Assembly (NCBI RefSeq): GCF_000403845.2
Contig: NZ_KE159567.1
Location: 814,911 to 878,910 of the forward strand
DNA from: Eubacterium sp. 14-2
GTDB taxonomy: Bacteria > Bacillota > Clostridia > Lachnospirales > Lachnospiraceae
Reading direction: 5' to 3'
DNA: 64,000 nt
Positions 25,936 through 48,112 of the stretch are shown piece by piece; position 1 is the first letter of the stretch, and each line of letters opens with the position of its first letter. A program made the translations under genes and the position numbers. The notes below the pieces were generated by a model. It was not told where the DNA came from, did no database searches, and worked only from the letters and a program-made list of their open reading frames with translations.

Positions 25936-27922
25936 TGTGAATACAGAAAAGAAGCTGACCCTCGGAAGCCTGTTTGACGGCTCCGGGGGTTTTCCGCTCG
26001 CCGGCCTGCTGGCGGGGATACGCCCGGTCTGGGCTTCAGAAATAGAGCCGTTCCCCATCCGGGTGACCACGAAGCGGCTGCCGTTTGTGAAACACCTGGG
26101 CGACATCAACGGCATATGTGGGGATGAGATAGAGCCGGTGGACATCATCACCTTCGGCTCGCCCTGCACCGACATGTCGGTGGCGGGAAAGCGGGCGGGG
26201 CTTGGCGGGAAGCAGTCCAGCCTGTTCTACGAGGCAATCAGGATCATAAAGGAAATGAGGTGTGCGACAGATGGAAAATATCCAAGGTTCATCGTGTGGG
26301 AGAATGTCCCCGGTGCCTTCTCATCCAACAAAGGGGAGGACTTCCGCTGCGTCCTCGAAGAAGTCTGCTCTGTCAGGGATGAGGGCGTTTCTGTTCCTGG
26401 ACCTCCGAAGGGGAAGTGGCCAAACGCAGGGGAGATCGTGGGTGACGGATACTCCGTGGCCTTCAGGCAGATCGATGCGCAATTGTGGGGAGTTCCCCAG
26501 CGAAGGAAACGCATCTACCTTGTCGGGGATTTTGCAGGGTGGGGTGCCGGAAAAATATTATTTGAGTCCGAAGGCGTGTCTGGGTATTCTGCGGAGGGCT
26601 TCCGCGCGTGGCAAGGAGCTGCCCGCCATACTGAGGAAGGCGCTGGAGCGGCAGGCGGCGTCCGGGGAGTAGTGGCCTGCCTCTGCGACCAGGGCGGGCA
26701 GAGGATGGATGTGATGGAGGACATGGCCTGCACCCTGCGGGCGGAGGCGCACCATCCGCCGTGTGTCCTGGATGCGGCGGGGTTCTGCACGGAACATTCC
26801 GCACAGGCGCGGGGCATCGGCTATGAAGAGGAAACTTCGCCTACGCTCCGCGCCGGGACGGTTCCGGCTGCGATATGCTATGAAAACCATAGCCAGGATA
26901 CCAGATACACGGGACCGCTGGAAACTGCGCCTACAGTCAGCGCCACATATGGGATGGGCGGCAACAACCAGCCGTTCGTGGTGGAGCCGGAAACACCCAA
27001 GACCATGAAGGTGAGGGCTGGAAAATCCGGCGGGGGCAAAGGCATTTTAGTCCAGGAGGACAGGTCGGCGACGCTCTCCTGCAATAACGACCAGACGGTG
27101 TTCGTGCCGGTGCAGGCATACGGCATCTGCTCCAAGGACAGCAATGCCATGAAGTCGGATAACCCGCACAGCGGATTTTACGAGGCGGCAACTGCCCGGA
27201 CGCTGGATGGGAACGGAGGAAATCCATCCTGCAACCAGGGTGGGATTGCCGTTGTGGAGCCGGAGGGGATGTCCGCGTTCCACATCAACCAGAGGGACGA
27301 GGTCATCGACCTGCATGGGAAATCCGGGGCATTGATGGCGACCCGCAATATGCAGATGCAGACTTTCGTCCTCCAGGGCTCCATGATCGGGCGGGGCGAC
27401 AAAAACGGGCCGCAGGGCAGCGGCATCAATGAGGATGTGGCTTTTTCCCTCACGGCCGCAGACCGCCACGCCGTGGCGCAGCCGACCTACTGCACCAGCA
27501 AGAATTCCCATTTCACGCGGGCGGAGAAGGAACTGGCGAACACGCTGGTGGCTACGGATTATAAGGACCCGCCCGTCATCAACGATGTGAAGGAGGAGCC
27601 AGACTATATCGTGAGGAGGCTGACGCCCACGGAATGCGCGAGGCTGCAGGGCTTCCCGGACTGGTGGTGTGACGGCCTTGGCACGGAGAACCCCGCAGAG
27701 GATGAGCTTGCGTTCTGGCGGGAGGTCTTTGAGACCCACCGGAAAGTCATGGGGACTTCCAAAAAGCCGAAGACCGACAGGCAGATACTGAAATGGCTGA
27801 AAGACCCGCATTCCGATTCGGCGGAATACCGTATGTGGGGGAATGGCATCGCGTTGCCGAACGCTTATTTCGTGCTTGCGGGCATTGTGTACTACGCCCA
27901 GTTCCCGGACTTTTTATTGTGA
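25928..27922 (+). CDS. C5-cytosine DNA methyltransferase with repeated insert
   Basis: 664 residues from ATG 25928 (GGAGGCGG upstream). Motif I is GSLFDGSGGFPLAG, motif IV GSPCTDMS with catalytic C80, motif VI ENVPG, motif VIII QRRKRIYLVG, then motifs IX-X at the end (RRLTPTECARLQGFPDWW, YRMWGNGIALPNA). Between VIII and IX, about residues 249-558, lies a 310-residue insert built of about seven units, each containing a TL-x-A-like strand. The insert replaces a normal target recognition domain of about 100-150 residues. It may give several target specificities (inference). The enzyme probably protects phage DNA. Confidence 0.92.
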   Translation: MDNVNTEKKLTLGSLFDGSGGFPLAGLLAGIRPVWASEIEPFPIRVTTKRLPFVKHLGDINGICGDEIEPVDIITFGSPCTDMSVAGKRAGLGGKQSSLFYEAIRIIKEMRCATDGKYPRFIVWENVPGAFSSNKGEDFRCVLEEVCSVRDEGVSVPGPPKGKWPNAGEIVGDGYSVAFRQIDAQLWGVPQRRKRIYLVGDFAGWGAGKILFESEGVSGYSAEGFRAWQGAARHTEEGAGAAGGVRGVVACLCDQGGQRMDVMEDMACTLRAEAHHPPCVLDAAGFCTEHSAQARGIGYEEETSPTLRAGTVPAAICYENHSQDTRYTGPLETAPTVSATYGMGGNNQPFVVEPETPKTMKVRAGKSGGGKGILVQEDRSATLSCNNDQTVFVPVQAYGICSKDSNAMKSDNPHSGFYEAATARTLDGNGGNPSCNQGGIAVVEPEGMSAFHINQRDEVIDLHGKSGALMATRNMQMQTFVLQGSMIGRGDKNGPQGSGINEDVAFSLTAADRHAVAQPTYCTSKNSHFTRAEKELANTLVATDYKDPPVINDVKEEPDYIVRRLTPTECARLQGFPDWWCDGLGTENPAEDELAFWREVFETHRKVMGTSKKPKTDRQILKWLKDPHSDSAEYRMWGNGIALPNAYFVLAGIVYYAQFPDFLL

Positions 27923-27980
27923 CATTTTTCCTGCGGTTTCCCTTGCTATTTTTACCACTTTGAGTGATTAATGTAGTACC
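27916..27980 (+). promoter_or_regulatory. cargo promoter module, copy A
   Basis: ATTGTGA half-site at 27916-27922, TTGCTA at 27943-27948, 17 bp, GATTAA at 27966-27971, then GTAGTACC. The left half-site position falls inside the methyltransferase gene and does not match. It drives the 28004 gene and the three small genes after it. Confidence 0.7.
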
Positions 27981-28003
27981 ACAAAAAAAGGAGGGCAAAC
28001 AGT

Positions 28004-28768
28004 ATGGAAAGAAGATTCAACGTGACAGGGGAACGCAGGAAAGAGATGGTAAAGGTCATTTCCGGGATCGTCGGGATGAAGGCGGTCTACATGAAGATGC
28101 CGACCTGCGCATACGCCATCAGCAATTTTACGGTCAGCAAAGAAGGAACCCTGGTCTGGGATGAACGCACGGACAGCGGTACGGTGGAAAAGGTTCTGGC
28201 AGGGCTGGCGCAGGCGGGATTCACGGCAGAGCTGGAGGAAACCGCAGAGGCACAGGCAGAGCCGCAGGATTCCGCAGAAGAAACGGCAGAGGCACAGATG
28301 GAGCCAGAGGCTCCCACGGAAGAACCGCAGGAGGGCATCGGGCTTACGGTGTCGCTGCCGAGGGAGTCCTTCACGGACGCCGCCCTGGAGAACCTGCACA
28401 GGCTGGTGGACGCCAAGGCCGCCCTGATCAAAAAGGCGCTGGCGGTTGAAAGCCTCCCGGTTGAGGCGGATGAGGAGAAGGTCTCCTTCCCCTGGTTCGC
28501 GGACGGGCAGGATGGCGATGCGGCGAAGGCATACACGCATTTCATCACCGCCCTCTGCGACATGGCGCGGAAGCAGAAGCGCGTCACGGCGAAGGAGCGG
28601 CCGGCGGACAATGAGAAATACGCCTTCCGGTGCTTCCTGCTCCGGCTCGGCTTCATCGGGGAGGAGTACAAGGGCGAGCGGAAGGTCCTGCTGAAGAACC
28701 TTTCCGGCAACGGCAGCTTCAAGAGCGGGGCGAGGAAGGGGGCGGCAGACAATGACATTTCCGAGTAG
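28004..28768 (+). CDS. phage accessory protein, 'virulence protein'-type, function unknown
   Basis: 254 residues, AAGGAGGG upstream. The N-terminal part (1-75) begins MERRFNVTGERRKEMVKVIS and has GMKAVYMKMPTCAYAISNFT. A low-complexity Glu/Ala/Gln linker (about 78-110) follows. The C-terminal domain has LTVSLPRESFTDAALENLHR and FRCFLLRLGFIGEEYKGERK with LLKNLSGNGSFKSG. Databases often label relatives 'virulence protein' without evidence. Driven by promoter module copy A, it looks like cargo expressed apart from the structural operon. Confidence 0.75.
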   Translation: MERRFNVTGERRKEMVKVISGIVGMKAVYMKMPTCAYAISNFTVSKEGTLVWDERTDSGTVEKVLAGLAQAGFTAELEETAEAQAEPQDSAEETAEAQMEPEAPTEEPQEGIGLTVSLPRESFTDAALENLHRLVDAKAALIKKALAVESLPVEADEEKVSFPWFADGQDGDAAKAYTHFITALCDMARKQKRVTAKERPADNEKYAFRCFLLRLGFIGEEYKGERKVLLKNLSGNGSFKSGARKGAADNDISE

Positions 28769-28970
28769 GGAGATCGTGGAGCGCGTCCGCAGGGAGTACC
28801 CTGCGGGGACGCGTGTCCGCCTCGAAAAAATGGACGACTGCCAGGCCCCTCCGATTGGGACGGAGGGCGTGGTGGAAGGTGTGGACGACACGGCTTCTTT
28901 GATGGTCCGCTGGAGCAACGGCTCCCACCTCCATGTAATCTACGGCGAGGACGAAGTCCGCAGGATATAG
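28752..28970 (+). CDS. DUF4314 family protein
   Basis: 72 residues beginning inside the end of the previous gene (17 bp overlap). The core YPAGTRVRLEKMDDCQAPPI with GTEGVVEGVDDTASLMVRW and SNGSHLHVIYGEDEVRRI is the DUF4314 domain, an SH3-like small barrel frequent in mobile elements of Firmicutes. It may bind nucleic acid. Same transcription unit as the 28004 gene. Confidence 0.82.
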   Translation: MTFPSREIVERVRREYPAGTRVRLEKMDDCQAPPIGTEGVVEGVDDTASLMVRWSNGSHLHVIYGEDEVRRI

Positions 28971-28998
28971 CGGCGCTTGGAAGGGAGGCGGATGCGGA

Positions 28999-29211
28999 AT
29001 GAAACACACGGACAGGAAAAAGAGGATATGCCCAAGGTGTGGTCAGGTTTACTACGGGAGGCCGGCAGTCTCACGGAAGGACAATGAGACGCAGCTCTGC
29101 CCGGACTGCGGAACCAGGGAGGCGCTGGAGGGCATCGGCGTGGGCGCGGCGGAGCAGGAACAGATCCTTGAAGCCATCCACAGGTGTTACGGAAGGGGGC
29201 AGGAAGGATGA
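28999..29211 (+). CDS. small zinc-ribbon protein
   Basis: 70 residues. Two CxxC pairs, RICPRCGQ and LCPDCGTRE, form a zinc ribbon, followed by a helix ending EQILEAIHRCYGRGQEG. This small ribbon usually follows DUF4314 in related elements. The next ATG overlaps its stop (ATGA). Confidence 0.75.
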   Translation: MKHTDRKKRICPRCGQVYYGRPAVSRKDNETQLCPDCGTREALEGIGVGAAEQEQILEAIHRCYGRGQEG

Positions 29212-29399
29212 AGGCATATGGCAGGAACCTCCGGTGGATCGAGGACCACCAGTACGGGGATGAGATGCACACCGGGATTGCCATGCCCGCGTCCGGGAAA
29301 AGGCGCGGGCAGAGGCGGAGGCGCTACAAGCGGCCGTTCAAAAAGTCGGAGCGGCAGCACTCCAGACACATGATCCGCCGGGAGCTTGGCGGGGATTAG
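29208..29399 (+). CDS. small basic phage protein
   Basis: 63 residues, strongly basic: MKAYGRNLRWIEDHQYGDEM, then GKRRGQRRRRYKRPFKKSER. The start ATG overlaps the stop of the zinc-ribbon gene. It shares its plan with the 54-residue protein at 32279 (MKxYG start, RRWKRPLKK-like basic patch), so the two are probable paralogues. Nucleic-acid binding is plausible. Confidence 0.65.
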   Translation: MKAYGRNLRWIEDHQYGDEMHTGIAMPASGKRRGQRRRRYKRPFKKSERQHSRHMIRRELGGD

Positions 29400-29411
29400 C
29401 CCGCCATAAAC

Positions 29412-29500
29412 TACACAATTCCCGGCGCGGATATTTGTACAGTTTAATGCCCGAAATTGACTTGATAATATGTGCTTTTAGAGCGAATATGTGTACTACC
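29412..29500 (+). promoter_or_regulatory. cargo promoter module, copy B
   Basis: TACACAA 29412-29418, TTTGTAC 29434-29440, TTGATA 29462-29467, 17 bp, GAATAT 29485-29490, then GTGTACTACC. The in-frame GTG at 29491 reads MYYRKGK but lies within the module and is not the gene start. Confidence 0.85.
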
Positions 29501-29538
29501 GAAAGGGAAAACAAAAAAACAAAACGGAGGTACACACC

Positions 29539-29976
29539 ATGAAAAAGGACATTTTTGCAGAAACCTACGCACAGGTGCAGGAGCTTAAGAAAGCCTACGA
29601 CGCGGCAGCGGACGAGGCGGGGAAGGAAAAGGCCAGGGCCGGATACCACGCCCTGATGGAAGGCATCGAGGGGCTTGGGGCTGCCGCCTGCCGCATCTGG
29701 AGGGAATACGAGACCGCCATGGAGAACGGGAACGCCCGCCTTGACATCAGCGAAGTGGTCTGGGAGAAGGATGTGGAAAGCCTCATCTCCTGCATGAGGG
29801 AGAACGGGATCAGCGAGTTCACCTTTTCTTCCGGCTGGAGCAGCGCGGTGGAGACCGCATGGCTTTTCACACAGAACGGCTGCGAAGTGGCCGGGATGGC
29901 CGAGGTGAACGGGGGCATGAACCATTTTGCGGGGGAACGTGAGAAAAAGCACGGATACCTTTTCAGGGTAAAATAA
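29539..29976 (+). CDS. phage cargo protein of unknown function
   Basis: 145 residues from ATG 29539 (GGAGGT upstream). Helical N-terminal half MKKDIFAETYAQVQELKKAY, then ISEVVWEKDVESLISCMREN and a C-terminal alpha/beta part ISEFTFSSGWSSAVETAWLF with CEVAGMAEVNGG. The last part resembles small regulatory folds found in Firmicutes phage cargo proteins. I do not know its role. Promoter module copy B is directly upstream. Confidence 0.68.
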   Translation: MKKDIFAETYAQVQELKKAYDAAADEAGKEKARAGYHALMEGIEGLGAAACRIWREYETAMENGNARLDISEVVWEKDVESLISCMRENGISEFTFSSGWSSAVETAWLFTQNGCEVAGMAEVNGGMNHFAGEREKKHGYLFRVK

Positions 29977-30021
29977 CTATCCCGGACCGGCGGAGCCGGA
30001 AGGCTCCGCTGGCCGCAGATA

Positions 30022-30109
30022 TACACAATTCCCGCAGCAGATGTTTGTGTACTTTATGCTCCGGTTCTGCTTGCTATTACCGGCAGAAAGAGCGAATATG
30101 TGTACTACC
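30022..30109 (+). promoter_or_regulatory. cargo promoter module, copy C
   Basis: TACACAA 30022-30028, TTTGTGT 30044-30050, TTGCTA 30071-30076, 17 bp, GAATAT 30094-30099, then GTGTACTACC. Drives the 30142 gene. Confidence 0.85.
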
Positions 30110-30141
30110 GAAAAGGGAAAACAAAAAGGAGGACACAGACC

Positions 30142-30417
30142 ATGAAGATTAACGATGCAATGAAAACCTACAGACTGCCGAACTCCACCACGCCGGAAGA
30201 CCTGGAATGCAGATGGGGCAAGCTGCTGACCTTTGGCGACAGGGTGGTCATCGCCGGGTACTTTTTCAACGGCCCAAACAAACCCTGCTATTTCGGGGCG
30301 GTTTACGAATTCCTGGGTGATGACCATACCTGCGAAGGCACCATCGGTCTCCGGGCGGCAAGCGGAGTCGAGTTCGAGGATGACGGCCACGCAATCGCCT
30401 GGGCGATGCAGCAGTAA
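30142..30417 (+). CDS. phage cargo protein of unknown function
   Basis: 91 residues from ATG 30142 after AGGAGG. It begins MKINDAMKTYRLPNSTTPED and continues as a compact beta-rich fold with FGDRVVIAGYFFNGPNKPCY and GTIGLRAASGVEFEDDGHAI. No recognised family. Preceded by promoter module copy C and followed by a hairpin before the large terminase gene. Confidence 0.65.
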   Translation: MKINDAMKTYRLPNSTTPEDLECRWGKLLTFGDRVVIAGYFFNGPNKPCYFGAVYEFLGDDHTCEGTIGLRAASGVEFEDDGHAIAWAMQQ

Positions 30418-30482
30418 ACACCAATGAAGAACATTTCAAGAGCGGGGCCGGAAGGCCCTGTGTCTTGTACTGATAGATTGGG

Positions 30483-30507
30483 GGCTTGCCGATGGCAGGC
30501 CATTTTT
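30483..30507 (+). terminator. short terminator before the large terminase
   Basis: GGCTTGCC (30483-30490) pairs with GGCAGGCC (30494-30501) followed by ATTTTT. It separates the cargo unit from terL. Confidence 0.55.
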
Positions 30508-30532
30508 ATGCCATCTTCTGGAGGTGATGCCG

Positions 30533-32140
30533 ATGGCTATGCGGAAGCTGAAAAAATACAGGCCGACAAAGTTCAAGGCGAAGGACAGCTGCTATGATAA
30601 GGCCGCCGCCGATTTTGCCGTGATGTTCATCGAGAGCCTCTGCCACACCAAGGGGACATGGGCGGGGAAGCCTTTTGAGCTGATCGACTGGCAGGAGCAG
30701 ATCATCCGGGATATTTTTGGCACTCTGAAACCGAACGGCTACCGGCAGTTCAACACGGCCTACGTGGAGATCCCGAAGAAACAGGGCAAGTCGGAGCTGG
30801 CCGCCGCCGTGGCGTTGCTTTTGACCTGCGGGGACGGGGAGGAGCGGGCGGAGGTGTACGGGTGCGCCGCCGACCGGCAGCAGGCCACCATCGTCTTTGA
30901 CGTGGCGGCGGACATGGTGCGGATGTGCCCTGCGCTGAATAAGCGGGTGAAGATACTCGCCTCGCAGAAGCGGATCATCTACACGCCCACCAATTCCTTC
31001 TACCAGGTGCTTTCGGCGGAGGCGTATTCCAAGCACGGCTTCAACATCCACGGCGTGGTATTCGACGAGCTGCACACGCAGCCGAACCGGAAGCTGTTTG
31101 ACGTCATGACCAAGGGCTCCGGGGACGCCCGGATGCAGCCGCTGTATTTCCTCATCACCACGGCGGGGACGGACACCCATTCCATCTGCTACGAAACGCA
31201 CCAGAAGGCGAAGGATATCCTGGAGGGCAGGAAGATCGACCCGACCTTCTATCCCGTCATCTACGGCGCGGATGAGGCGGACGACTGGACGGACCCGAAG
31301 GTGTGGAAGAAAGCCAATCCTTCGCTGAACATCACGGTGGGGATTGACAAGGTGGAGGCAGCCTGTGAGTCGGCAAAGCAGAATCCGGGGGAGGAGAACA
31401 GCTTCCGGCAGCTCCGCCTGAACCAGTGGGTGAAACAGGCGGTGCGGTGGATGCCCATGGATCGATGGGATGCCTGCGCCTTCCCCGTTTCCGAGGACGG
31501 CCTGGAAGGGCGTGTCTGCTACGGCGGGCTGGACTTGTCCTCCACCACGGACATCACGGCGTTCGTGCTGGTGTTCCCGCCGCTGGATGAGGAGGACAAA
31601 TACTGTATCCTGCCGTACTTCTGGGTGCCTGAGGAGACGCTGGAGCTGCGTGTGAGGCGCGACCATGTCCCCTACGATGTGTGGGAGCGGCAGGGGAAGC
31701 TGATGACCACGGAAGGGAACGTGGTGCATTACGGCTATATTGAGAAATACATTGAGCGGCTTGGGGAGAGGTTCAACATCCGGGAGATCGCCTTCGACCG
31801 TTGGGGCGCTGTGCAGATGGTGCAGAACCTGGAGGGCATGGGCTTCACGGTGGTCCCGTTCGGGCAGGGTTTCAAGGATATGTCCCCGCCCACCAAGGAG
31901 CTGATGAAGCTGGTGCTGGAACAGATGGTCGCCCATGGCGGGCATCCGGTCCTGCGGTGGATGATGGACAACATCTTCATCCGCACCGACCCGGCGGGCA
32001 ATATCAAGGCGGACAAGGAAAAATCTACGGAGAAGATTGACGGGGCGGTGGCCGCGATTATGGGGCTTGACCGGGCGATCCGCTGCGGGAACATCTCCTC
32101 TGAGAGCGTCTACGATACCCGCGGTTTGATTGTATTCTGA
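30533..32140 (+). CDS. terL: phage terminase large subunit
   Basis: 535 residues from ATG 30533, 8 bp after GGAGG. ATPase: Walker A EIPKKQGKSELAAAVALLL (about 77-95), Walker B GVVFDELHTQ with coupling motif LITTAGT. Nuclease: YGGLDLSSTTDITAFVLVF gives the first acidic site, and the later acidic residues follow. It is the packaging motor that cuts and fills heads, paired with the small subunit at 23955. The start follows the usual MRKLKKYRPTKFKAKDS-type N-terminus of this terminase group. Confidence 0.93.
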   Translation: MAMRKLKKYRPTKFKAKDSCYDKAAADFAVMFIESLCHTKGTWAGKPFELIDWQEQIIRDIFGTLKPNGYRQFNTAYVEIPKKQGKSELAAAVALLLTCGDGEERAEVYGCAADRQQATIVFDVAADMVRMCPALNKRVKILASQKRIIYTPTNSFYQVLSAEAYSKHGFNIHGVVFDELHTQPNRKLFDVMTKGSGDARMQPLYFLITTAGTDTHSICYETHQKAKDILEGRKIDPTFYPVIYGADEADDWTDPKVWKKANPSLNITVGIDKVEAACESAKQNPGEENSFRQLRLNQWVKQAVRWMPMDRWDACAFPVSEDGLEGRVCYGGLDLSSTTDITAFVLVFPPLDEEDKYCILPYFWVPEETLELRVRRDHVPYDVWERQGKLMTTEGNVVHYGYIEKYIERLGERFNIREIAFDRWGAVQMVQNLEGMGFTVVPFGQGFKDMSPPTKELMKLVLEQMVAHGGHPVLRWMMDNIFIRTDPAGNIKADKEKSTEKIDGAVAAIMGLDRAIRCGNISSESVYDTRGLIVF

Positions 32141-32149
32141 CCGTAAAAA

Positions 32150-32235
32150 TGCACAAACCCCGCTGAAAATGTTTGTCTAAGATACTGCCGGAATCCGCTT
32201 GCTATCCTGTGGCTTCAGAGCGAATATGTCACTTA
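32150..32235 (+). promoter_or_regulatory. cargo promoter module, copy D
   Basis: TGCACAA 32150-32156, TTTGTCT 32172-32178, TTGCTA 32199-32204, 17 bp, GAATAT 32222-32227, then GTCACTTACC. Drives the small gene at 32279. Confidence 0.8.
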
Positions 32236-32278
32236 CCGGGAGGATATCCCGGAAATTATCTGGATGGAGGGATTTCTG

Positions 32279-32443
32279 ATGAAGCCATATGGAGCGGAAG
32301 AAAGGTTTGGAAAATATGAGTGGGAGGATTTCGGCGGCTGGTCAAGGAACCACACAAAAGCGGTATCCATCCGCAGGTGGAAGCGGCCGCTGAAAAAGAG
32401 GGCGAGGCAGGTGTGCCGTACCGCTCTGAGACGGCTGGTCTGA
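32279..32443 (+). CDS. small basic phage cargo protein
   Basis: 54 residues from ATG 32279 with GGAGGG upstream. MKPYGAEERFGKYEWEDFGG, then AVSIRRWKRPLKKRARQ and a basic end. It resembles the 63-residue protein at 29208 in its start and its central Arg/Lys patch, so the pair looks paralogous. It lies between terL and portal under promoter module copy D. Confidence 0.6.
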   Translation: MKPYGAEERFGKYEWEDFGGWSRNHTKAVSIRRWKRPLKKRARQVCRTALRRLV

Positions 32444-32466
32444 GACGGCTTTTCCGGGGCATAAAC

Positions 32467-32554
32467 CACACAAAAACTGCCCCGGATGTTTGTGTACTTT
32501 ATGGCGGGAATTGACTTGCTATTACCGGCATTCAGAGCGAATATGTGTACTACC
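32467..32554 (+). promoter_or_regulatory. cargo promoter module, copy E
   Basis: CACACAA 32467-32473, TTTGTGT 32489-32495, TTGCTA 32516-32521, 17 bp, GAATAT 32539-32544, then GTGTACTACC. Nearly identical to copy C from the -10 box onward. Confidence 0.85.
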
Positions 32555-32592
32555 GAAAAGGGAAATCAAAAAAGAAAACGGAGGTAACGCAC

Positions 32593-32778
32593 ATGAAGGT
32601 ACACGAATTTATTGCAAAGCACAAGATCAAGGAATCCAGGATGCGGATCTACGACGCGGAGCTTGGGGATGAGGTCTACGGGATCTACGAGATGGGCCTC
32701 TACCGTGACTGCGAGGTGGTCAGGGCATACCCGCACAACGGAGACACGGTTTTAGAGGTTGCATCGGTAAACGGCTAA
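32593..32778 (+). CDS. small phage cargo protein
   Basis: 61 residues from ATG 32593, GGAGGT upstream. MKVHEFIAKHKIKESRMRIY, then an acidic middle and YRDCEVVRAYPHNGDTVLEV. No known family. The fold appears alpha then beta. Driven by promoter module copy E and placed just before the portal gene. Confidence 0.62.
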   Translation: MKVHEFIAKHKIKESRMRIYDAELGDEVYGIYEMGLYRDCEVVRAYPHNGDTVLEVASVNG

Positions 32779-32852
32779 GACGGGACGGCACAGGGGGCGC
32801 TGCTTCGGCGGCGCCTTCCTGCTGTCCGTTTTTGGAAAGGAGCGTGGTATTT

Positions 32853-38529: not shown

Positions 38530-38690
38530 CCACGCCGCTGTTCCTGCTGCGGTGTGTGCAGCTCGGCATCTCCATCCGGGATTTAGATTTGCTGACCATC
38601 GGCATGGTCAACGATATGTACGCGGAGAGCAGCAATGACAGCGCGGACTACTCCATTATCGCAGGGCAGGACGAGTTTGATTTATTTTAA
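38526..38690 (+). CDS. tail assembly chaperone T extension (gpGT 3' part)
   Basis: 54 codons from ATG 38526, which overlaps the gpG stop. It is in the -1 frame and would mainly be made as a fusion to gpG through the slippery site at 38499-38505. MTTPLFLLRCVQLGISIRDL and a C-terminal acidic GQDEFDLF, as in the T domain that binds tape measure and tube in lambda-like phages. Confidence 0.85.
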   Translation: MTTPLFLLRCVQLGISIRDLDLLTIGMVNDMYAESSNDSADYSIIAGQDEFDLF

Positions 38691-38716
38691 CCGCAGATTT
38701 GGATTTTTTTGATAAC

Positions 38717-38739
38717 GCCTGGGCAGCCGGGCTTTTTTT
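38717..38739 (+). terminator. terminator between chaperone and tape measure genes
   Basis: GCCTGG and CCGGGC pair around GCAG, followed by seven T (38733-38739). Confidence 0.65.
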
Positions 38740-38761
38740 GCGCCGTTAAGGGGGTGTTGGT

Positions 38762-41698
38762 GTGGCGGCAAACAGGATAAAAGGGATTACGGTAGAGATC
38801 GGCGGCGACACCACGAAGCTCCAGACGGCGCTAAAAGGCGTGAACACGGAGATACGGAACACGCAGTCACAGCTTAAGGACGTGGAGAAGCTGCTGAAGC
38901 TCGACCCCGGCAACACGGAGCTGATGGCGCAGAAGCACCGGCTGCTCGGCCAGGCGGTTTCGGAAACGAAGGAAAAGCTGGAGACGCTGAAAACGGCGGC
39001 GGAGCAGGCGAATGACGCGCTGGCAAGGGGCGAGATTTCCCAGAGCCAGTACGATGCCCTCCAGCGGGAGATCATCGAGACGGAAAACAACCTGCGTGAC
39101 CTGGAGCGGCAGGCGGGGCAGTCCGCCGTGGCTTTGCAGAAGATTGCCGCCACGGGGGAGAAGTTAAAGACGGTCGGCTCCGCCATTGAGGGCGTGGGGC
39201 AGAAGCTGATGCCCGTCACTGCGGCGGTGGGCGGGCTTGGCGCGGCTGCCGTGAAGGTGGCTTCCGACTTCGACTCCGCCATGAGCCAGGTGGCGGCTGT
39301 GTCCGGGGCGACCGGGAAGGACCTGGAAGCCCTGCGGGATAAGGCCCGTGAGATGGGCAGCAAGACCAAGTTCTCCGCATCCGAGGCGGCGGAGGCGATG
39401 AACTACATGGCCATGGCCGGCTGGAAGACGAACGATATGCTCTCCGGCATCGAGGGCATCATGAACCTTGCCGCAGCCTCCGGGGAGGATCTGGCGACCA
39501 CCTCGGACATCGTGACGGACGCGCTGACCGCCCTGGGGCTGTCGGCGGAGGATTCCGGGCATTTCGCGGATATCCTTGCGGCGGCAAGCTCGAACGCCAA
39601 CACGAACGTATCCATGATGGGCGAGACGTTCAAATACTGTGCGCCCGTGGCTGGCGCGCTCGGCTTTTCCGCAGAGGATACAGCGGAAGCCATCGGCCTG
39701 ATGGCGAACGCGGGCATCAAGTCCTCCCAGGCAGGCACAGCCATGCGCTCCATGATGACGAACCTCACCGGGGAAGTGAAGTTTGTCGGGGACGCTTTCG
39801 GCGAGCTGACCATCCAGACCACGAACACGGACGGCAGCATGAGGAGCCTTGGGGACATCCTGGCAGACTGCCGTGCAGCATTCGCACAGATGTCCGAGTC
39901 GGAGAAGGCCGCCAATGCGGAAGCTCTGGTCGGGAAGAACGCCATGTCCGGCTTCCTTGCGGTGATGAACGCTGCTCCAGGGGACATTGAGAAATTAAAC
40001 AACGCCATCAACAACTGTGACGGCACGGCGGAGAAGATGGCGGCCACCATGCAGGATAACCTTGCGGGGCAGCTCACCATCCTAAAGAGCCAGCTTGAGG
40101 AACTGGCGATATCCATAGGCGAAATCCTGATGCCGTACATCCGGCAGATTGTTGGCTGGATACAGGGGCTTGTGGACTGGCTGAACAGCCTGGACGAAGG
40201 CACGAAGAAGATTATTGTCACGGTCGCCCTTGTGGCTGCGGCGCTCGGCCCCGTCCTGATCGTCATCGGGAAAGTGGTCGGGGCAATCGGAACAATTATG
40301 ACCGTGGTGCCGCAGATCGCCAGTGCCATTTCCGGCGTGATTGCTTTCGTGTCCGGGACGGTGATTCCGGCGATCTCCGCCGTGGTGGCGGCTATCGGCT
40401 GGGTGCCCCTGGCGATTGCGGCAGTGGTGGCGATACTTGTGGTGCTGTACAACAAGTGTGAGTGGTTCCGGGATGCGGTGAACGCCATCTGGACGCAGAT
40501 CAAGGAATTTTTTGTTTCCGCATGGGAAGTCATCTGTTCTTTCTTTACGGAGACCATACCGAATGCCTGGAATTCCCTGGTCTCATTCTTCCAGGGCATC
40601 CCGGCATGGTGGAGCGGGCTGTGGCAGTCCGTGGGAGACTTTTTCAGCAATATCTGGACGAACATGATGAACAATCCCGTGCTGACGGGGATCGTGGACA
40701 TGATACGCTCCCTGTGGGAGAACCTCTCCACAACGCTGCAGGGCATCTGGAACGGGATAAAGACAGCGGCTTCCGGGGCATGGGAGCTGATAAAGAACGT
40801 AGTGCTTGGACCGGTGCTTCTTCTTATCGACCTGGTGACCGGGAATTTTACCAAGCTGAAGGAGGACGCCGCCAACATCTGGAACAACATCAAGAATGCG
40901 GCGTCCAATATCTGGAACGGCATCAAGCAGGTGGTCGGCTCACTGGCGCAGGGGCTTGTGAACCATGTTTCCATCCTGTTTAATGGGCTGAAAACTACGA
41001 TTGCCAATATCTGGACGGCAATAAAGAACACGGCCTCGTCCGCATGGAACGGGCTGAAAAATTTAGTGTCGTCTATTGCGTCCAACTTAAAGCAGGCGGC
41101 GGTGAACGCTTTCAAGGCCATGGTGTCCGGGATACGCTCCGCGCTTTCCTCCCTGGGGAGCGTGGTGCAGTCCGGGTTCCAGTCCGCCGTCAGCTTCATC
41201 ACCTCGCTGCCGGGGAAAGCCCTGGAGTGGGGGAAGGACTTCATCAACGGCATTGCGGACGGCATCCGCAGCGCCATCGGCAACGTGATAAACGCGGTGT
41301 CGGACGTGGCGGATAAGATACGCTCCTTCCTGCACTTCTCCGTGCCGGACGAGGGGCCGCTGACAGACTACGAAAGCTGGATGCCGGACTTCATGTCCGG
41401 GCTGGCAAAGGGCATCGAAAAGAGCCGGGGCATGGTGAAGAAGGCCGTGTCCGGCGTGGCATCCGACTTAATGCTCCAGCCACAGGCGACTGTCCAGGGG
41501 ATGCAGGGCGGACGGGATTCCTCCGGGGATTCTTCCGTGGGCGAGCTTTTAGGAGGGCTCCGGGAGATGCTTTCCGGCCTGCAGGAAATGGCGGGCGGCG
41601 GGACCATCTGCATCCCCGTGTATGTGGGCGGGACGCTGCTGGACGAAGTGGTGGTGGATGCCCAGGCAAGGCAGAACTTAAGGTCGGGAGGGAGGTAA
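38762..41698 (+). CDS. phage tail tape measure protein
   Basis: 978 residues from GTG 38762. The N-terminal 130 residues are coiled coil (ANRIKGITVEIGGDTTKLQT). The core PhageMin_Tail domain follows with VASDFDSAMSQVAAVSGATG, FSASEAAEAMNYMAMAGWKT and GIKSSQAGTAMRSMMTNLTG. A hydrophobic region (about 470-560) with several membrane-like stretches precedes a repeat-rich part: about five units of the type NIWNNIKNAASNIWNGIKQ. A tail of about 150 residues ends it. Length sets tail length, about 150 nm by the usual ratio (inference). Confidence 0.95.
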   Translation: MAANRIKGITVEIGGDTTKLQTALKGVNTEIRNTQSQLKDVEKLLKLDPGNTELMAQKHRLLGQAVSETKEKLETLKTAAEQANDALARGEISQSQYDALQREIIETENNLRDLERQAGQSAVALQKIAATGEKLKTVGSAIEGVGQKLMPVTAAVGGLGAAAVKVASDFDSAMSQVAAVSGATGKDLEALRDKAREMGSKTKFSASEAAEAMNYMAMAGWKTNDMLSGIEGIMNLAAASGEDLATTSDIVTDALTALGLSAEDSGHFADILAAASSNANTNVSMMGETFKYCAPVAGALGFSAEDTAEAIGLMANAGIKSSQAGTAMRSMMTNLTGEVKFVGDAFGELTIQTTNTDGSMRSLGDILADCRAAFAQMSESEKAANAEALVGKNAMSGFLAVMNAAPGDIEKLNNAINNCDGTAEKMAATMQDNLAGQLTILKSQLEELAISIGEILMPYIRQIVGWIQGLVDWLNSLDEGTKKIIVTVALVAAALGPVLIVIGKVVGAIGTIMTVVPQIASAISGVIAFVSGTVIPAISAVVAAIGWVPLAIAAVVAILVVLYNKCEWFRDAVNAIWTQIKEFFVSAWEVICSFFTETIPNAWNSLVSFFQGIPAWWSGLWQSVGDFFSNIWTNMMNNPVLTGIVDMIRSLWENLSTTLQGIWNGIKTAASGAWELIKNVVLGPVLLLIDLVTGNFTKLKEDAANIWNNIKNAASNIWNGIKQVVGSLAQGLVNHVSILFNGLKTTIANIWTAIKNTASSAWNGLKNLVSSIASNLKQAAVNAFKAMVSGIRSALSSLGSVVQSGFQSAVSFITSLPGKALEWGKDFINGIADGIRSAIGNVINAVSDVADKIRSFLHFSVPDEGPLTDYESWMPDFMSGLAKGIEKSRGMVKKAVSGVASDLMLQPQATVQGMQGGRDSSGDSSVGELLGGLREMLSGLQEMAGGGTICIPVYVGGTLLDEVVVDAQARQNLRSGGR

Positions 41699-41704
41699 AG
41701 CGGT

Positions 41705-42067: not shown

Positions 42068-42085
42068 GGGGAGGTGGGCATCCGG

Positions 42086-43942: not shown

Positions 43943-43952
43943 GGAGGGCATC

Positions 43953-45338
43953 ATGAAACTGAAAGGGACTATGACGATTGAACTGACGGATGCGGGCAGC
44001 GGGGAGACAGAAACCATCCGGGAGGAGAACATGGTCACGGACGCCGTGGACAACATCCTTGGGAGCAACCTGCTGGGGGTGTATTTCGACTCCGGCACAA
44101 GCTCGAAGAACATCACGGTGAACAGCCAGCTCCTGCCCATCTGCCCGAACACGCTGGGCGGCATCCTGCTGTTTGCGGATACGCTGGAGGAGCGGAAGGA
44201 TAACCTCTACCCCATGTCCGCGAACTACCCCGTGGCCTACGCCTCCAACGACGTGAACCTTGGGACGGACACGGCGCGGGGCAGCATGAACCAGACGGAG
44301 AGCGGCCCCATCGACAGGGGCTATAAATTCGTGTGGGACTTCACCACGAGCCAGGGCAACGGCACGATAGCCGCGGCCGCCCTCACAAGCTCCTGGGGCG
44401 GCAAGAACGTGTATGGGAGCGAAACAGAGGACGGCACTGCGTTCGTGGTCATGAAGGCGGTCTCCATTGCCGGATGCACGAACCGGAAGCGGTGGCTCTT
44501 AAGCAACGCCATAGAATGCGATTTTGAGAAGGAGGAGGTCTGGTCCATCAACTGCAGCAACACAAACATCATCACCATCAGCAGGTCCAGGCTCCCCATG
44601 GTGAGCCTGTGCGTCAACGAGAAGCTGAACGACAGCTCCGTGCAGGAGCTGGAAAGCTGGGAGATCGAGCCGTCCGTGTTCGGCTTTAAGAAGAACGTGT
44701 ATTATTACGGCTTTTTCCTGAACGGATGGGACGGGTACTGGTACGGGTTCTGCAACAGCCCGAATTCCTCCGGGAACGCCTCGGTGAAATGGATAAAGAT
44801 AGACCGCACGGACTTCAGCTACACGGAAGGCACATGGACGCTCACCAACGTCCAGCTCCCGACCATGGGGTACCGCGACACCAACTACGAGCTGTACAAG
44901 ACCTGGACCCGCGCCAGCATCCGGGGCGGGTACCTCTACACGTTCAACTACGGCTACACCGGGTTCTACAAGATATGCCTTACGAACCCGTCCGACGTCA
45001 CGTTTATCCCGGCGGGGTTCACGGCAAGGGGGAACGCCCTGGGAGGGAGCCTTGCGGGGAACGCCATGGAGCTGATGGGGGACATCATCGTGGGGTATGA
45101 CTTCCTGCTGTTCGCGGACGACACGGTCAGGCAGAACAAGGGGAACAAAAAGACGGAGGACGTGCAGACGCCTTTGTTCTGTTATAAAAACTTCTGCATC
45201 TCCTGGGCGTATGACGCGAGGTATATGTTCCTGCGCACGCCATACCTGGGCACCATAAACAACCTGTCCTCGGCGGTGGTGAAGACGGCGGACAAGACGA
45301 TGAAGATCACCTACACGCTGACGGACGAGGGGCAGTGA
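43953..45338 (+). CDS. phage tail fibre / receptor-binding candidate
   Basis: 461 residues from ATG 43953 (AAGGAGGG upstream). An N-terminal conserved region (MKLKGTMTIELTDAGSGETE, then NMVTDAVDNILGSNLLGVYF) anchors it to the baseplate. A Gly/Tyr/Trp/Asn-rich beta region forms the rest (ENYYYGFFLNGWDGYWYGF-like stretches). Gene position and composition suggest receptor binding. The stop is followed by a strong hairpin and a convergent gene. Confidence 0.72.
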   Translation: MKLKGTMTIELTDAGSGETETIREENMVTDAVDNILGSNLLGVYFDSGTSSKNITVNSQLLPICPNTLGGILLFADTLEERKDNLYPMSANYPVAYASNDVNLGTDTARGSMNQTESGPIDRGYKFVWDFTTSQGNGTIAAAALTSSWGGKNVYGSETEDGTAFVVMKAVSIAGCTNRKRWLLSNAIECDFEKEEVWSINCSNTNIITISRSRLPMVSLCVNEKLNDSSVQELESWEIEPSVFGFKKNVYYYGFFLNGWDGYWYGFCNSPNSSGNASVKWIKIDRTDFSYTEGTWTLTNVQLPTMGYRDTNYELYKTWTRASIRGGYLYTFNYGYTGFYKICLTNPSDVTFIPAGFTARGNALGGSLAGNAMELMGDIIVGYDFLLFADDTVRQNKGNKKTEDVQTPLFCYKNFCISWAYDARYMFLRTPYLGTINNLSSAVVKTADKTMKITYTLTDEGQ

Positions 45339-45345
45339 CGGCTTT

Positions 45346-45374
45346 ACGGCAGGGGGAGGCGTTTCCCCTGCCGT
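45346..45374. terminator. hairpin between convergent tail fibre and SymE-like genes
   Basis: ACGGCAGGGG (45346-45355) pairs perfectly with CCCCTGCCGT (45365-45374). Without a clear T run it could serve both strands. Confidence 0.55.
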
Positions 45375-45417
45375 GGTAAAAGGGATGTGTGTATGCCGGG
45401 GGAATCCCGGCGGGGAT

Positions 45418-45774
45418 TTACTGCTGTGCGGCGTACCTGTCAGACGGCTCTGCGACCATGGAGAGGGATGCGGCTTCTTTTTCCGCGCGGCGCTTCATCT
45501 TTTCAAGTTCCGCAATCCTGCGGGAAATCTCCGCCTGCGTCTCCCGCTGTTCTTTTGCCGCCAGTTCTTCGGCGGTGAGGGTGCGGATGCGGATGAAGCC
45601 CTCTTCGTATTCAACGATGAGCGGGGTGCCGATGGAAAAGCCGAGGGCTTCCAGCCACTTCCCCTCCATCTGTATCTTCGGCACCGTGCAGCACGGGCCG
45701 GAGCCGGTGCGCAGGATTCCGCCGCTCTGGGAATAGCGGCTGCTGTATAAGACTTTGATATTTTTTGTTTTCAT
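45418..45774 (-). CDS. SymE-like protein (type I toxin SymE family)
   Basis: 118 residues on the minus strand from ATG 45774, after AAGGAGG. KVLYSSRYSQSGGILRTGSG and VPKIQMEGKWLEALGFSIGT with PLIVEYEEGFIRIRTL match the SymE fold, an AbrB-like barrel with GxWLExxGF. A charged C-terminal helix of about 45 residues is added. SymE of E. coli is an SOS-induced, antisense-RNA-controlled toxin that may act on RNA or the nucleoid. It is the only minus-strand gene in the prophage, under promoter module copy F. Confidence 0.8.
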   Translation of the reverse strand: MKTKNIKVLYSSRYSQSGGILRTGSGPCCTVPKIQMEGKWLEALGFSIGTPLIVEYEEGFIRIRTLTAEELAAKEQRETQAEISRRIAELEKMKRRAEKEAASLSMVAEPSDRYAAQQ

Positions 45775-45840
45775 AGGGTGTCCTCCTTGCATTTTTATTT
45801 CCCGTGCCGCCTCCCGTTTTCCGGGCAGGCGGGGCTTTGG

Positions 45841-45927
45841 GTAGTGTTATTAATCACTCTGAAGCCGTGAAATAGCAAGGAAAACAGGGGCATAAATGTG
45901 ACAAAGATTCCCACAGATACTTGTGTA
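45841..45927 (-). promoter_or_regulatory. cargo promoter module, copy F (minus strand)
   Basis: Read on the minus strand: TACACAA (45927-45921), TTTGTCA (45905-45899), TTGCTA (45878-45873), 17 bp, GATTAA (45855-45850), then ACACTACC. It drives the SymE-like gene, showing that the module works as a movable unit in either orientation. Confidence 0.8.
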
Positions 45928-45959
45928 AACGACACAAATAAATATCCTTTTGGATACGG

Positions 45960-45988
45960 GGCTGTCCGCCATTGGCGGGCGGCCTTTT
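45960..45988 (+). terminator. terminator before the holin gene
   Basis: GGCTGTCCGCC (45960-45970) pairs with GGCGGGCGGCC (45974-45984), then TTTT. Confidence 0.6.
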
Positions 45989-46022
45989 ATCATACAAAAA
46001 ATCATTTAAAGGAGGTTTCAAC

Positions 46023-46442
46023 ATGAAGGAATTCTGGAACACGATCCAACTCATCTTTACGGCCATCGGGGGATGGCTCGGCTGGTTCTTAGGCGGCTGT
46101 GACGGCCTGCTGTACGCGCTTGTCGTATTTGTCGTGGTGGACTATGTCACGGGCGTGATGTGCGCCGCGGCGGATAAGAAGCTGTCCAGCGAGGTGGGAT
46201 TTAAGGGCATCGCAAAGAAGGTGCTGATCTTCCTGCTGGTGGGGATCGCCAACATCCTCGATGTGCAGGTCATCGGGAACGGCTCTGTCCTGCGGACGGC
46301 GGTTATCTTTTTCTATATTTCCAATGAGGGCGTGAGCCTTTTAGAGAACGCCGGACACCTTGGGCTGCCCATCCCGGAAAAGCTGAAGGATATCCTGGAG
46401 CAGCTCCATGACAGGGCAGAGGACGGGAAGGGGGATGAATAA
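46023..46442 (+). CDS. phage holin
   Basis: 139 residues from ATG 46023 (GGAGGT upstream). Membrane helices at about 8-26 (LIFTAIGGWLGWFLGGCDGL), 27-48 (YALVVFVVVDYVTGVMCAA), 70-86 and 92-112. DYVTGVMCAA is the hallmark of the holin 4 / toxin-secretion holin family. A short charged C-terminal tail follows. It makes the membrane holes through which the amidase leaves; it ends just 2 bp before that gene. Confidence 0.9.
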   Translation: MKEFWNTIQLIFTAIGGWLGWFLGGCDGLLYALVVFVVVDYVTGVMCAAADKKLSSEVGFKGIAKKVLIFLLVGIANILDVQVIGNGSVLRTAVIFFYISNEGVSLLENAGHLGLPIPEKLKDILEQLHDRAEDGKGDE

Positions 46443-46444
46443 TC

Positions 46445-47956
46445 GTGAAACTGGTGGAAAGCATCCTGACAAGGAACCCCTGCTATACGGCAGGGCGGAA
46501 GATCACGGTGAAGGGGCTGATGCTCCATTCCGTGGGCTGCCCGCAGCCGAAGGCATCCGCTTTCATCAATAGCTGGAATAGCCCGGCGCACGATAGTTCC
46601 TGCGTCCACGGTTTCATTGACGGGAACGATGGCGCAGTGTACCAGACGCTCCCGTGGAACCACAGGGGATGGCACTGCGGAAGCGGGAATAAGGGGAGCG
46701 GGAACAATACCCATATCGGGGTGGAGATGTGCGAGCCTGCGTGTATCCGGTACACGGCAGGCTCTAACTTTACCTGCTCCGATGTGGCCGCGGCAAAAGC
46801 GGTGGCAAAAAGAACCTATGAGGCAGCGGTGGAGCTGTTCGCCATGCTCTGTAAAAAATACAGCCTGAATCCATTGGAGGATGGCGTAGTCATCAGCCAC
46901 AAAGAGGGACACAGACGGGGCATTGCCAGCAACCACGGCGACCCGGAGCATTTATGGACGCAGCTTGGCGCGGGGTACACGATGGACGGGTTCCGCAAAG
47001 CAGTCAAGGCGGCGATGGGAGGCGCATCCTCCGGCACGGGCAGATACACGAAGATCATGGGGGATTCCGCGGCAACGGCAGAGCAGATGAGGAATTATAT
47101 CAAAGGGAAGAATCCGGCAGTGGCGCAGTCTGTCCTCGATACGGTTCCGCTGTATCTCTCCGAGGGTAAGGCGGAGGGAGTCCGGGGCGACGTCGCCTTT
47201 GCACAGTCCTGCCTTGAGACCGGCAATTTTACCTTTTCCGGCTCTGCGGTCACGCTTTCACAGAACAATTTCTGCGGCATGGGCGTGACTTCCAATGGTA
47301 TGAAGGGAAATTCCTTTGGCACGCCGCAGCTCGGCATCCGGGCGCAGGTGCAGCATTTGAAAGCCTACGCCTCCACGGACGAACTGAAGAACGCCTGCAT
47401 TGACCCGCGTTTTAAGTATGTCACGAGGGGCTGTGCGGAATATGTGGAGTGGCTTGGGCAGAAAGAAAATCCGGCCGGGAAAGGATGGGCGGCGGGAGCT
47501 GGCTATGGGGAGAAAATCCTCTCCATCCTGAAAGGCATCCTTGGCACGGCGGGAGGCTCACCAAAGCCTGCTCCCGCAGAGACCGAAGCCTGGTACCGCG
47601 TCCGGAAGTCGTGGGCGGACGCATCCTCGCAGAAAGGGGCGTTCAAGTCGCTGGGGAACGCCAAGAAGTGTGCGGACGAAAATCCGGGGCATTCCGTGTT
47701 TGATGAATCGGGGAAGGCGGTGTATACCAGGGCGGCGGCATTCCAGCCGTACCTTGTGCGGGTGTCCATCCCCGACCTGAACATCCGGGAAGCGCCTGGG
47801 ACGGATAAGCCCAAGACCGGGAAGGTGACTGGTATGGGTGTATTTACCATTGTTGAGGAAGCGGACGGGAAAGGCGCATCCCGGTGGGGGCTGCTGAAAT
47901 CCTACCGGGAAAAGAGAAACGGATGGATTTCGCTCGATCACGCCAGCCGGATATAA
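46445..47956 (+). CDS. endolysin: N-acetylmuramoyl-L-alanine amidase with added domains
   Basis: 503 residues from a GTG. Residues 1-170 are an Amidase_2/PGRP domain: MLHSVGCPQPKASAFINSWN, THIGVEMCEPA and the HKEGHRRGIASNHGDPEHLW zinc part. Residues about 210-345 resemble a glucosaminidase (FlgJ-like) domain: VRGDVAFAQSCLETGNFTFS, NNFCGMG, GIRAQVQHLKAYAS. A SPOR-like section, VRKSWADASSQKGAFKSLGN, follows. The end is an SH3b wall-binding domain with LNIREAPGTDKPKTGKVTGM. Two enzyme domains on one lysin. Confidence 0.88.
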   Translation: MKLVESILTRNPCYTAGRKITVKGLMLHSVGCPQPKASAFINSWNSPAHDSSCVHGFIDGNDGAVYQTLPWNHRGWHCGSGNKGSGNNTHIGVEMCEPACIRYTAGSNFTCSDVAAAKAVAKRTYEAAVELFAMLCKKYSLNPLEDGVVISHKEGHRRGIASNHGDPEHLWTQLGAGYTMDGFRKAVKAAMGGASSGTGRYTKIMGDSAATAEQMRNYIKGKNPAVAQSVLDTVPLYLSEGKAEGVRGDVAFAQSCLETGNFTFSGSAVTLSQNNFCGMGVTSNGMKGNSFGTPQLGIRAQVQHLKAYASTDELKNACIDPRFKYVTRGCAEYVEWLGQKENPAGKGWAAGAGYGEKILSILKGILGTAGGSPKPAPAETEAWYRVRKSWADASSQKGAFKSLGNAKKCADENPGHSVFDESGKAVYTRAAAFQPYLVRVSIPDLNIREAPGTDKPKTGKVTGMGVFTIVEEADGKGASRWGLLKSYREKRNGWISLDHASRI

Positions 47957-47968
47957 ATACAGACAGCA

Positions 47969-48009
47969 GGGCCCGCGGCATTTTCCCATGTGCCGCGGGC
48001 CCGTTTTTT
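47969..48009 (+). terminator. strong terminator after the lysis genes
   Basis: GGGCCCGCGGCA (47969-47980) pairs perfectly with TGCCGCGGGCCC (47991-48002), followed by GTTTTTT. It closes the late operon. Confidence 0.88.
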
Positions 48010-48022
48010 AGTGGGTGTAAAC

Positions 48023-48112
48023 TACACAGGAAACGGATGGAAAGTTTGTGCATCTTATGGCGCAGATATGAGTGGATAATCTGCGGAATCTGATTTAACA
48101 TGGCACTACCCC
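48023..48112 (+). promoter_or_regulatory. cargo promoter module, copy G
   Basis: TACACAG 48023-48029, TTTGTGC 48045-48051, TGGATA 48073-48078, 17 bp, TAACAT 48096-48101, then GGCACTACC. The most divergent copy. Drives 48163 and 48228. Confidence 0.7.

Follow-up and report, generated by a model that had tools for sequence, protein, structure and literature searches.

The 64,000-nt stretch of Eubacterium sp. 14-2 analyzed here (contig NZ_KE159567.1, positions 814,911 to 878,910 of the forward strand; hereafter the window) carries a prophage in which one short sequence element recurs ahead of small genes. We found the same element ahead of genes in temperate phages of the 'Ca. Heliusvirales' type, and from its form and position we consider it fairly likely that the sites make up one promoter family of this phage group, which would give autonomous and co-regulated transcription of cargo genes.

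A preliminary description of the prophage had claimed seven copies of a single promoter-operator module, with the plan TACACAA, TTTGT, TTGnTA, a -10 hexamer and ACTACC at constant spacings. We scored the window with two matrices. The narrow core matrix, built from 125 distinct cores that all came from outside the window, recovered six of the seven sites at 31.7-56.1 bits, and nothing in 20 Markov copies of the window scored above 2; site 7 was missed (not above 5 bits). A wider matrix, built from 103 non-redundant sites outside the window, which include sites of near-identical phages and two that belong to the second prophage of the host, recovered site 7 as well and found all seven sites where they had been placed, at 31.6-63.1 bits, against a maximum of 8.3 bits in five Markov copies of the window. 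The pattern TACACAA-N13..17-TTTGT on its own matched the window 4 times, against 0.01 expected. The inventory had been incomplete, since it listed neither an eighth match, at 49293 ahead of the serine recombinase gene at 49347, nor the five sites that a second prophage of this genome carries. The sites, with their scores under the wider matrix, are the following.

Site 1, 27916..27980, plus strand: half-site ATTGTGACATTT; -35 CTTGCTA at 27942-27948; -10 GATTAA at 27966-27971; distal arm absent; 46.0 bits.
Site 2, 29412..29500, plus strand: dyad at 29412-29441; -35 CTTGATA at 29461-29467; -10 GAATAT at 29485-29490; 63.1 bits.
Site 3, 30022..30109, plus strand: dyad at 30022-30051; -35 CTTGCTA at 30070-30076; -10 GAATAT at 30094-30099; 46.1 bits.
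Site 4, 32150..32237, plus strand: dyad at 32150-32179; -35 CTTGCTA at 32198-32204; -10 GAATAT at 32222-32227; 48.2 bits.
Site 5, 32467..32554, plus strand: dyad at 32467-32496; -35 CTTGCTA at 32515-32521; -10 GAATAT at 32539-32544; 60.9 bits.
Site 6, 45840..45927, minus strand, opposite to the late genes: half-sites TACACAA and TTTGTCAC at 45898-45927; -35 CTTGCTA at 45873-45879; -10 GATTAA; 48.8 bits.
Site 7, 48023..48110, plus strand: dyad at 48023-48052; -35 variant TGGATA at 48073-48078; -10 TAACAT at 48096-48101; 31.6 bits.
Site 8, new and the weakest, 49266..49328, plus strand: -35 CTTGCAA at 49292-49298; -10 GATGAA at 49316-49321; overlaps the end of a SHOCT gene; 21.0 bits.

The spacings were as described, with 15 bp from TACACAA to TTTGT in 6 of the 7 copies, 20-21 bp from there to the -35, and 17 bp between the hexamers in all 7. 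The sequence plan held overall and required correction in detail: the TACACAA arm is missing from site 1, where ATTGT replaces TTTGT; the arm is TGCACAA in site 4, CACACAA in site 5 and TACACAG in site 7, which also has TGGATA instead of TTGnTA; and in place of the final ACTACC, site 1 shows AGTACC and site 4 shows CTTACC.

To describe the core across phages we used a non-redundant set of 201 sites, from which duplicates, sites with ambiguous letters and sites near locus ends had been removed before cores, arms and hexamers were counted. The core consists of a -35 block, CTTGCTAT, 17 bp between the hexamers, AGAGYGA running into an AT-rich -10 and, mostly, a final TACC. The -35 hexamer is TTGCTA in 170 of these sites, TTGATA in 19 and TGGATA in 5, the -10 hexamer is GAATAT in 123, GATTAA in 45 and GATATA in 12, and AGAG is kept directly 5' of the -10 in 197. 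About 10 free bases lie between the two blocks, and these have diverged. When sites were anchored by the -10 block alone (84 distinct GAGCGAATATGTGNACTACC), TTGNTA stood exactly 17 bp upstream in 81 and TTGCAA in 3. Anchoring by the upstream half-site and the -35 alone gave 27 distinct sites, all of them with AGAG and 23 with GAGCGAATAT, at the same offset. Altogether 301 distinct sites scored above 5 bits in 224 sequences (window included), while reversed sequences gave one match, of 4.5 bits.

These cores lead into genes. A Shine-Dalgarno sequence and an open reading frame (ORF) follow 481 of 502 sites, the start codon lying a median of 41 nt past the core and mostly 28-54 nt past it; of the 21 sites without an ORF call, 13 are within 210 nt of a locus end. 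Enrichment upstream of genes in related phages had been named beforehand as a check, and it was observed: 193 of the 201 non-redundant sites lead into a Shine-Dalgarno sequence and an ORF, against 57% at random places of the same loci, and the start codon lies 20-60 nt past the core in 179 of 201, against 11%. The products form 41 BLAST clusters, some of which may be spurious, since the ORF calls were automatic and some are possibly wrong. Most are small proteins of unknown function; the family of the gene at 28004 is the largest cluster (262/481), and the others include DUF7698, Nmad4, DUF7678, DUF6900, DUF6329, clusters without a match and one cluster of serine recombinases. The units occupy the interval from the methyltransferase genes to terL, that from terL to portal, the vicinity of the lysis genes and the recombinase locus. 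As the preliminary description had it, a single phage uses the element many times, before small and mostly unknown genes amid structural genes. In the window these genes are as follows.

Gene after site 1, 28004..28768, plus strand: 254 amino acids (aa); phrog_2443; annotated elsewhere as 'virulence-related' or as amidoligase.
Cargo after site 2, 29539..29976, plus strand: DUF7698 (PF24753, E 2.2e-20).
Cargo after site 3, 30142..30417, plus strand: Nmad4 (PF18756, E 5.2e-22).
Cargo after site 4, 32279..32443, plus strand, between terL and portal: 54 aa, no Pfam or PHROG match at E 0.01.
Cargo after site 5, 32593..32778, plus strand, between terL and portal: 61 aa, no Pfam or PHROG match at E 0.01.
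Cargo after site 6, 45418..45774, minus strand: SymE-like (PF08845, E 2.5e-9; phrog_32044).
Cargo after site 7, 48163..48506, plus strand: function unknown; a 21-codon ORF at 48163-48228 and a 92-codon ORF at 48228-48506.
Serine recombinase after site 8, 49347..50900, plus strand: TTG start, read from the sequence.

A longer ORF at the last position (49302-50900) gave recombinase-type matches, all below curated cut-offs, and the window's serine recombinase shares 44% identity with the annotated place at 38379-39977 of record L225, which is labelled Ca. Heliusvirales. Relatives also have a site ahead of the recombinase, at 41.9 bits in L225, 34.1 in the second prophage, 27.0 in Gardnerella phage AB1, 25.9 in Javan105 and 21.1 in Javan255; the loci with such sites are L225, L243, L254, L255 and L256, and also L258, where the score is below its null. 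The element had been presented as the mark of a cargo regulon. Cargo units do carry the core, and the widespread 28004 gene and the recombinase genes carry it too. Because the same core precedes the 28004 gene and the recombinase, cargo and life-cycle genes are probably under one control, each unit receiving its own transcription start, predicted just after the -10. Of 50,697 phage records, 60 have a 28004 homologue (6 of the 60 are Streptococcus records), and an AlphaFold2 (AF2) model of the protein (mean predicted local distance difference test, pLDDT, 77.9) gave no match to a solved fold at E up to 0.001. The 28004 family has many invariant basic residues and has a C-terminal block in common with proteins annotated as phage amidoligases.

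Morons are autonomous promoter-gene-terminator units in prophages, with individual promoters, and the sites could be ordinary moron promoters of this kind, descended from an ancestral cassette promoter that was copied with each cargo gene and is read by host polymerase with sigma-A in the lysogen. Such an account would fit the 17-bp spacing, the A at the second -10 position of the common variants, the promoter-gene-terminator layout of some units, the presence of the promoter in phages of many hosts, and core genes that are still about 42-85% identical to those of the Gardnerella phage (capsid 42%, terL 85%). The hexamers fit it poorly, however, with 177 of the 201 sites matching TTGACA at 4 of 6 positions and 184 matching TATAAT at 3 of 6. 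A scan for the sigma-70/sigma-A consensus (hexamers TTGACA and TATAAT at a spacing of 16-18 bp, with 9 of 12 positions matching) called no site in 27800-33000 or 45200-49500, although the 17-bp spacing does fit. Sigma-A does not require AGAG, which was nevertheless retained almost throughout and was present in every one of the 27 sites found without asking for it, and the free bases between the blocks have diverged. On this evidence we regard the sigma-A account as possible and rather unlikely. Because the core is kept across hosts of two phyla and is off-consensus for sigma-70, its reader is more likely to be phage-encoded than to be host sigma-A. A more ambitious reading, which we put forward only tentatively, is that a whole phage order has a private promoter code with a dedicated reader (the family of the protein at 48707, described below, or a sigma-like partner), and that cargo would be under phage control, together with the recombinase on which integration and excision depend, in hosts from Clostridia to Actinobacteria.

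Two other identities for the element were rejected. Sigma-H or ComX promoters have a -10 like GAAT or CGAATA; GAATAT accounts for only 123 of the 201 sites, next to GATTAA and GATATA, and the -35 TTGCTA is unlike their consensus. The leaders did not behave as a hairpin or RNA element either, since their folds were barely stabler than shuffles (mean z -0.64 in 123 leaders of class A, the main form). Several class A leaders (e.g. L002, L005 and L006) contain GTGTACTACCGAAAGGGAAAACACAC, a predicted hairpin with a CC-GAAA-GG tip that is not clearly stabler than shuffles.

The dyad upstream of the core was not found in every copy, as the claim of a single module would have it. The TACACAA/TTGTGTA arms passed a fixed test in 109 of the 201 sites, against 1.2% of shuffled upstream stretches; the gap between arms is 16 bp in 77 of 201 sites (0.07% in shuffles), and the proximal arm lies mostly 26-27 bp upstream of the -35. 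By type of -10, arms were present in 84 of 123 sites with GAATAT, 13 of 45 with GATTAA and 3 of 12 with GATATA, and none of 7 sites from AB1 (Gardnerella) and Javan105 (Streptococcus) passed the test. Because arms pass in only 109 of 201 sites and in none of those seven, the module of the preliminary description splits, by sequence, into a core of general occurrence and an operator that is optional. In many gut-phage cargo units the added operator, TACACAA-N16-TTGTGTA, would have its centre some 70 bp ahead of the predicted start and may offer a binding place for an activator or a repressor. The dyad region folds better than the leaders do (mean z -1.67), as expected of an inverted repeat, and a search of viral contigs for the exact dyad with the -35 gave 0 matches. 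A repressor shared with the immunity region was considered and rejected: in the window, dyads of this form occur only at promoters (sites 2-5 and 7 by sequence), and in L225 a half-site scan gave 15 matches, which was not above shuffles (2-14).

We assigned the prophage of the window to the 'Ca. Heliusvirales' type by shared genes and their order (polymerase, helicases, HNH, terS, terL, portal, protease, capsid and serine recombinases); the accessible text of PMC9226167 gives a nine-gene definition of the group. All 16 window proteins compared match L225, at 26-88% identity (terL 88%, portal 77%, polymerase 75%), the gene order agreeing except for the third recombinase, and 15 of the 16 match phage AB1. 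Among 19 distinct Heliusvirales-type records, nine so labelled and the rest recognized by gene content (15 chosen through a 28004 homologue and 4 through a homologue of 48707), 18 have at least one core site above the null. The phages above the null include those of Streptococcus, Erysipelothrix, Terrisporobacter, Anaerosphaera, Peptoclostridium and Gardnerella, hosts that span two phyla. Among the loci that have both a site and an ORF, a packaging, structural or replication homologue was present in the fetched piece for 143 of the 164 viral ones and for 47 of the 55 from genomes; 15 of the 29 loci without one were re-examined, and all have some protein in common with reference phages. Of 150 genomes across the family, only the one that contains the window matched the strict pattern, and a species-level genome set gave 55 matching stretches, by title mostly Lachnospiraceae and other Clostridia. 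As far as seen, the element appears to be a property of Heliusvirales-type phages, in searches that were not aimed at conjugative elements as such.

The 3.99-Mb host genome has six occurrences of the class A pattern, three in this prophage and three in a second Heliusvirales-type prophage (G000:C1, about 1769000-1818000; L241-L243), which has five sites of the same promoter family. The terL and portal proteins of the two prophages are 97% and 95% identical, and the genes in between are wholly different, a picture in which cargo would be exchanged wholesale at a few spots between conserved genes. It could be argued that the conserved stretch is mainly a recombination linker, a short homology for cargo exchange with a secondary role as promoter; 192 sites join 80 different neighbour pairs, and cargo has been swapped between near-identical terL and portal genes. 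A linker would not need two fixed blocks at promoter spacing with about ten free bases between them, however, and the gene between terL and portal in the second prophage has no motif, and so we find this explanation improbable.

Very different genes are annotated in the cargo spot after terL in other loci (L230, L245, L246, L252, L256 and L259), among them genes for an aminoglycoside nucleotidyltransferase, a MerR regulator, DinJ-type proteins, a 3'-phosphoadenosine 5'-phosphosulfate (PAPS) reductase and an abortive infection protein. One unit of the second prophage has ORFs that, read from their translations, resemble an amidoligase and a gamma-glutamyl cyclotransferase, which the window prophage is without. 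Elsewhere in the window, at 53629-53752, a 26-nt unit (GGGAAAAATCACGGAGTATAGGAAAA-like) is present six times at 18-21 bp spacing, and the array runs into the beginning of the ORF for the third serine recombinase.

The layout of the units was examined through terminator-like hairpins, of which the region 27800-33000 has 9, against 5.2 expected in shuffles, and the region 45200-49500 has 10, against 3.8 expected. Those that adjoin the units are listed here.

Terminator-like hairpin, 30483..30511, plus strand: after the site 2/3 units, before terL.
Terminator-like hairpin, 32807..32836, plus strand: after the site 4/5 units, before portal.
Terminator-like hairpin of 13 pairs, 47969..48012, plus strand: after the lysis genes, just before site 7.
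Terminator-like hairpin of 10 pairs, 48529..48565, plus strand: after the site 7 unit.

The site 7 unit is thus flanked by two strong terminator-like hairpins, and the 2/3 and 4/5 units each end in one. In layout they resemble morons, as putatively independent small units between late genes, one of them opposite to the late genes and one between terminator-like hairpins. Unlike morons, they would share one family-specific promoter, which also stands ahead of the recombinase.

Three regulators had been named as possible binders of the element, and they fared differently.

48707 protein, 48707..49132, plus strand, the best candidate: helix-turn-helix (HTH) and two cysteine clusters; phrog_2308; HTH_28 at E 1.9e-5 and 25.1 bits, with a cut-off of 25.
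12495 protein, 12495..12887, plus strand, the second candidate: sigma-70 region 4-like, at the left end; PF08281 E 2.6e-13.
22779 protein, 22779..23228, plus strand: weakly ArpU-like; phrog_36 and phrog_248; phage_arpU E 0.0088, below cut-off.
Stretches after ArpU-like genes, with direct repeats and -10 boxes: window 23228-23283; L227 6786-6918; L254 12881-13034.

The 48707 protein is the best conserved HTH protein of the three. Either of two queries found homologues in 142 of 50,697 phage records, 97 of them Streptococcus, and 60 of the 142 records are among the matches listed. The HTH and the cysteine pattern are similar across Gardnerella, Streptococcus and gut (Lachnospiraceae) phages, the gene adjoins the recombinase in the window and in several relatives, and of four phages that bear 48707 but no full homologue of 28004, all except Javan100 have core sites that exceed the null. 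This association suggests the HTH/zinc-cluster family as a possible reader of the core, an assignment that we hold with low confidence.

A protein stands in a place similar to that of 12495 in seven relatives examined, and the recognition helices of this sigma-like set differ. The early sigma-like protein was rejected as sole reader, since the match to Pfam region 4, clear for the window and for L228, is weak or absent in L225, L226, L229 and L230.

Late promoters of the RinA/ArpU type in Gram-positive phages pair a phage-encoded HTH protein with a phage-specific promoter, and the system described here is alike in that respect. Were 22779, as a late regulator, to drive the sites, cargo would be expressed late; in AB1 and in each of the seven phages compared, a gene of its kind does immediately precede HNH/terS. 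The stretch that follows them, however, has no core match in the phages compared and is a separate element, with TTGGCAC/T direct repeats about 10-11 bp apart, clear in L227 and L254 (AB1) and looser in others, and TATAAT-like -10 boxes instead. We consider control of the sites by 22779 highly improbable. The stretch is likely a separate late promoter, and 22779 probably serves the one in 23228-23283 and not the core sites.

Several observations count against our preferred interpretation of the sites as a phage-group promoter family. Randomised AT-rich records scored up to 16.4, 18.6 and 20.8 bits, and for this reason scores of about 20 bits need outside support and site 8, at 21.0, leans on its relatives. 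The training loci were collected with motif patterns, which makes the conservation partly one of construction and is why the checks anchored on the -10 block alone, or on the half-site and -35 alone, matter. The window and AB1 share terL at 85%, portal at 75%, polymerase at 67%, capsid at 42% and 28004 at 32% identity; descent may explain part of the likeness, and the argument from conservation is weakened accordingly. Javan100 has a 48707 homologue, yet its best sites, at 7.7 and 6.6 bits, fall below its null of 12.1; the core is visible ahead of its recombinase despite these scores. Only two phages, Sfi21 and MM1, served as controls; both are Streptococcus phages from other groups, and neither had a site above the null. 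For three viral loci (L142, L143 and L145) an endolysin is all that they have in common with the reference phages, no site accompanies the partial 28004 homologue that lies elsewhere in the host genome (L244), and the dyad arms covary only weakly (z 2.5). As to the reader, the 48707 proteins of the window and AB1 are about 40% identical and stand out only in comparison with the other two HTH candidates, and the function of the gene could instead lie with the recombinase beside it.

By analogy, the closest precedent is the pair of start-linked repeated motifs SAS (start-associated sequence) and ESAS (extended SAS) of cluster K mycobacteriophages, for which the acting factor was unknown in the accessible text of that paper (PMC3203893). 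As described there, a short asymmetric motif precedes many different genes and is conserved across subclusters, as it is here across phages, and an upstream inverted repeat accompanies part of the copies. SAS, with the consensus GGGATAGGAGCCC at the translation start, lies directly upstream of starts and was discussed for translation, whereas the present element has two blocks at a 17-bp promoter spacing and ends mostly 28-54 nt before the start. The two are unrelated in sequence (CTTGCTAT...AGAGYGA...TACC here), and the hosts are mostly of another phylum. We found no description of the motif in open-licence literature: as far as their accessible text goes, 'promoter' occurs 0 times in the main text of PMC9226167 and 8 times in PMC11318856, whose promoter passages concern lysogeny modules and not this motif, and PMC11253131 and PMC12427128 do not describe it. 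Neither SAS/ESAS nor morons are known to have this core sequence or a promoter shared with the recombinase; repeated phage-specific promoters are a known kind of element.

Heliusvirales are described in the accessible text of PMC9226167 as widespread gut phages associated with metabolic syndrome. A signature of independently transcribed units would allow their cargo genes, many of unknown function, to be listed across metagenomes, and would provide a handle on when this cargo is expressed. A promoter that keeps its form across host phyla would be uncommon, a phage regulatory code that does not follow the host.

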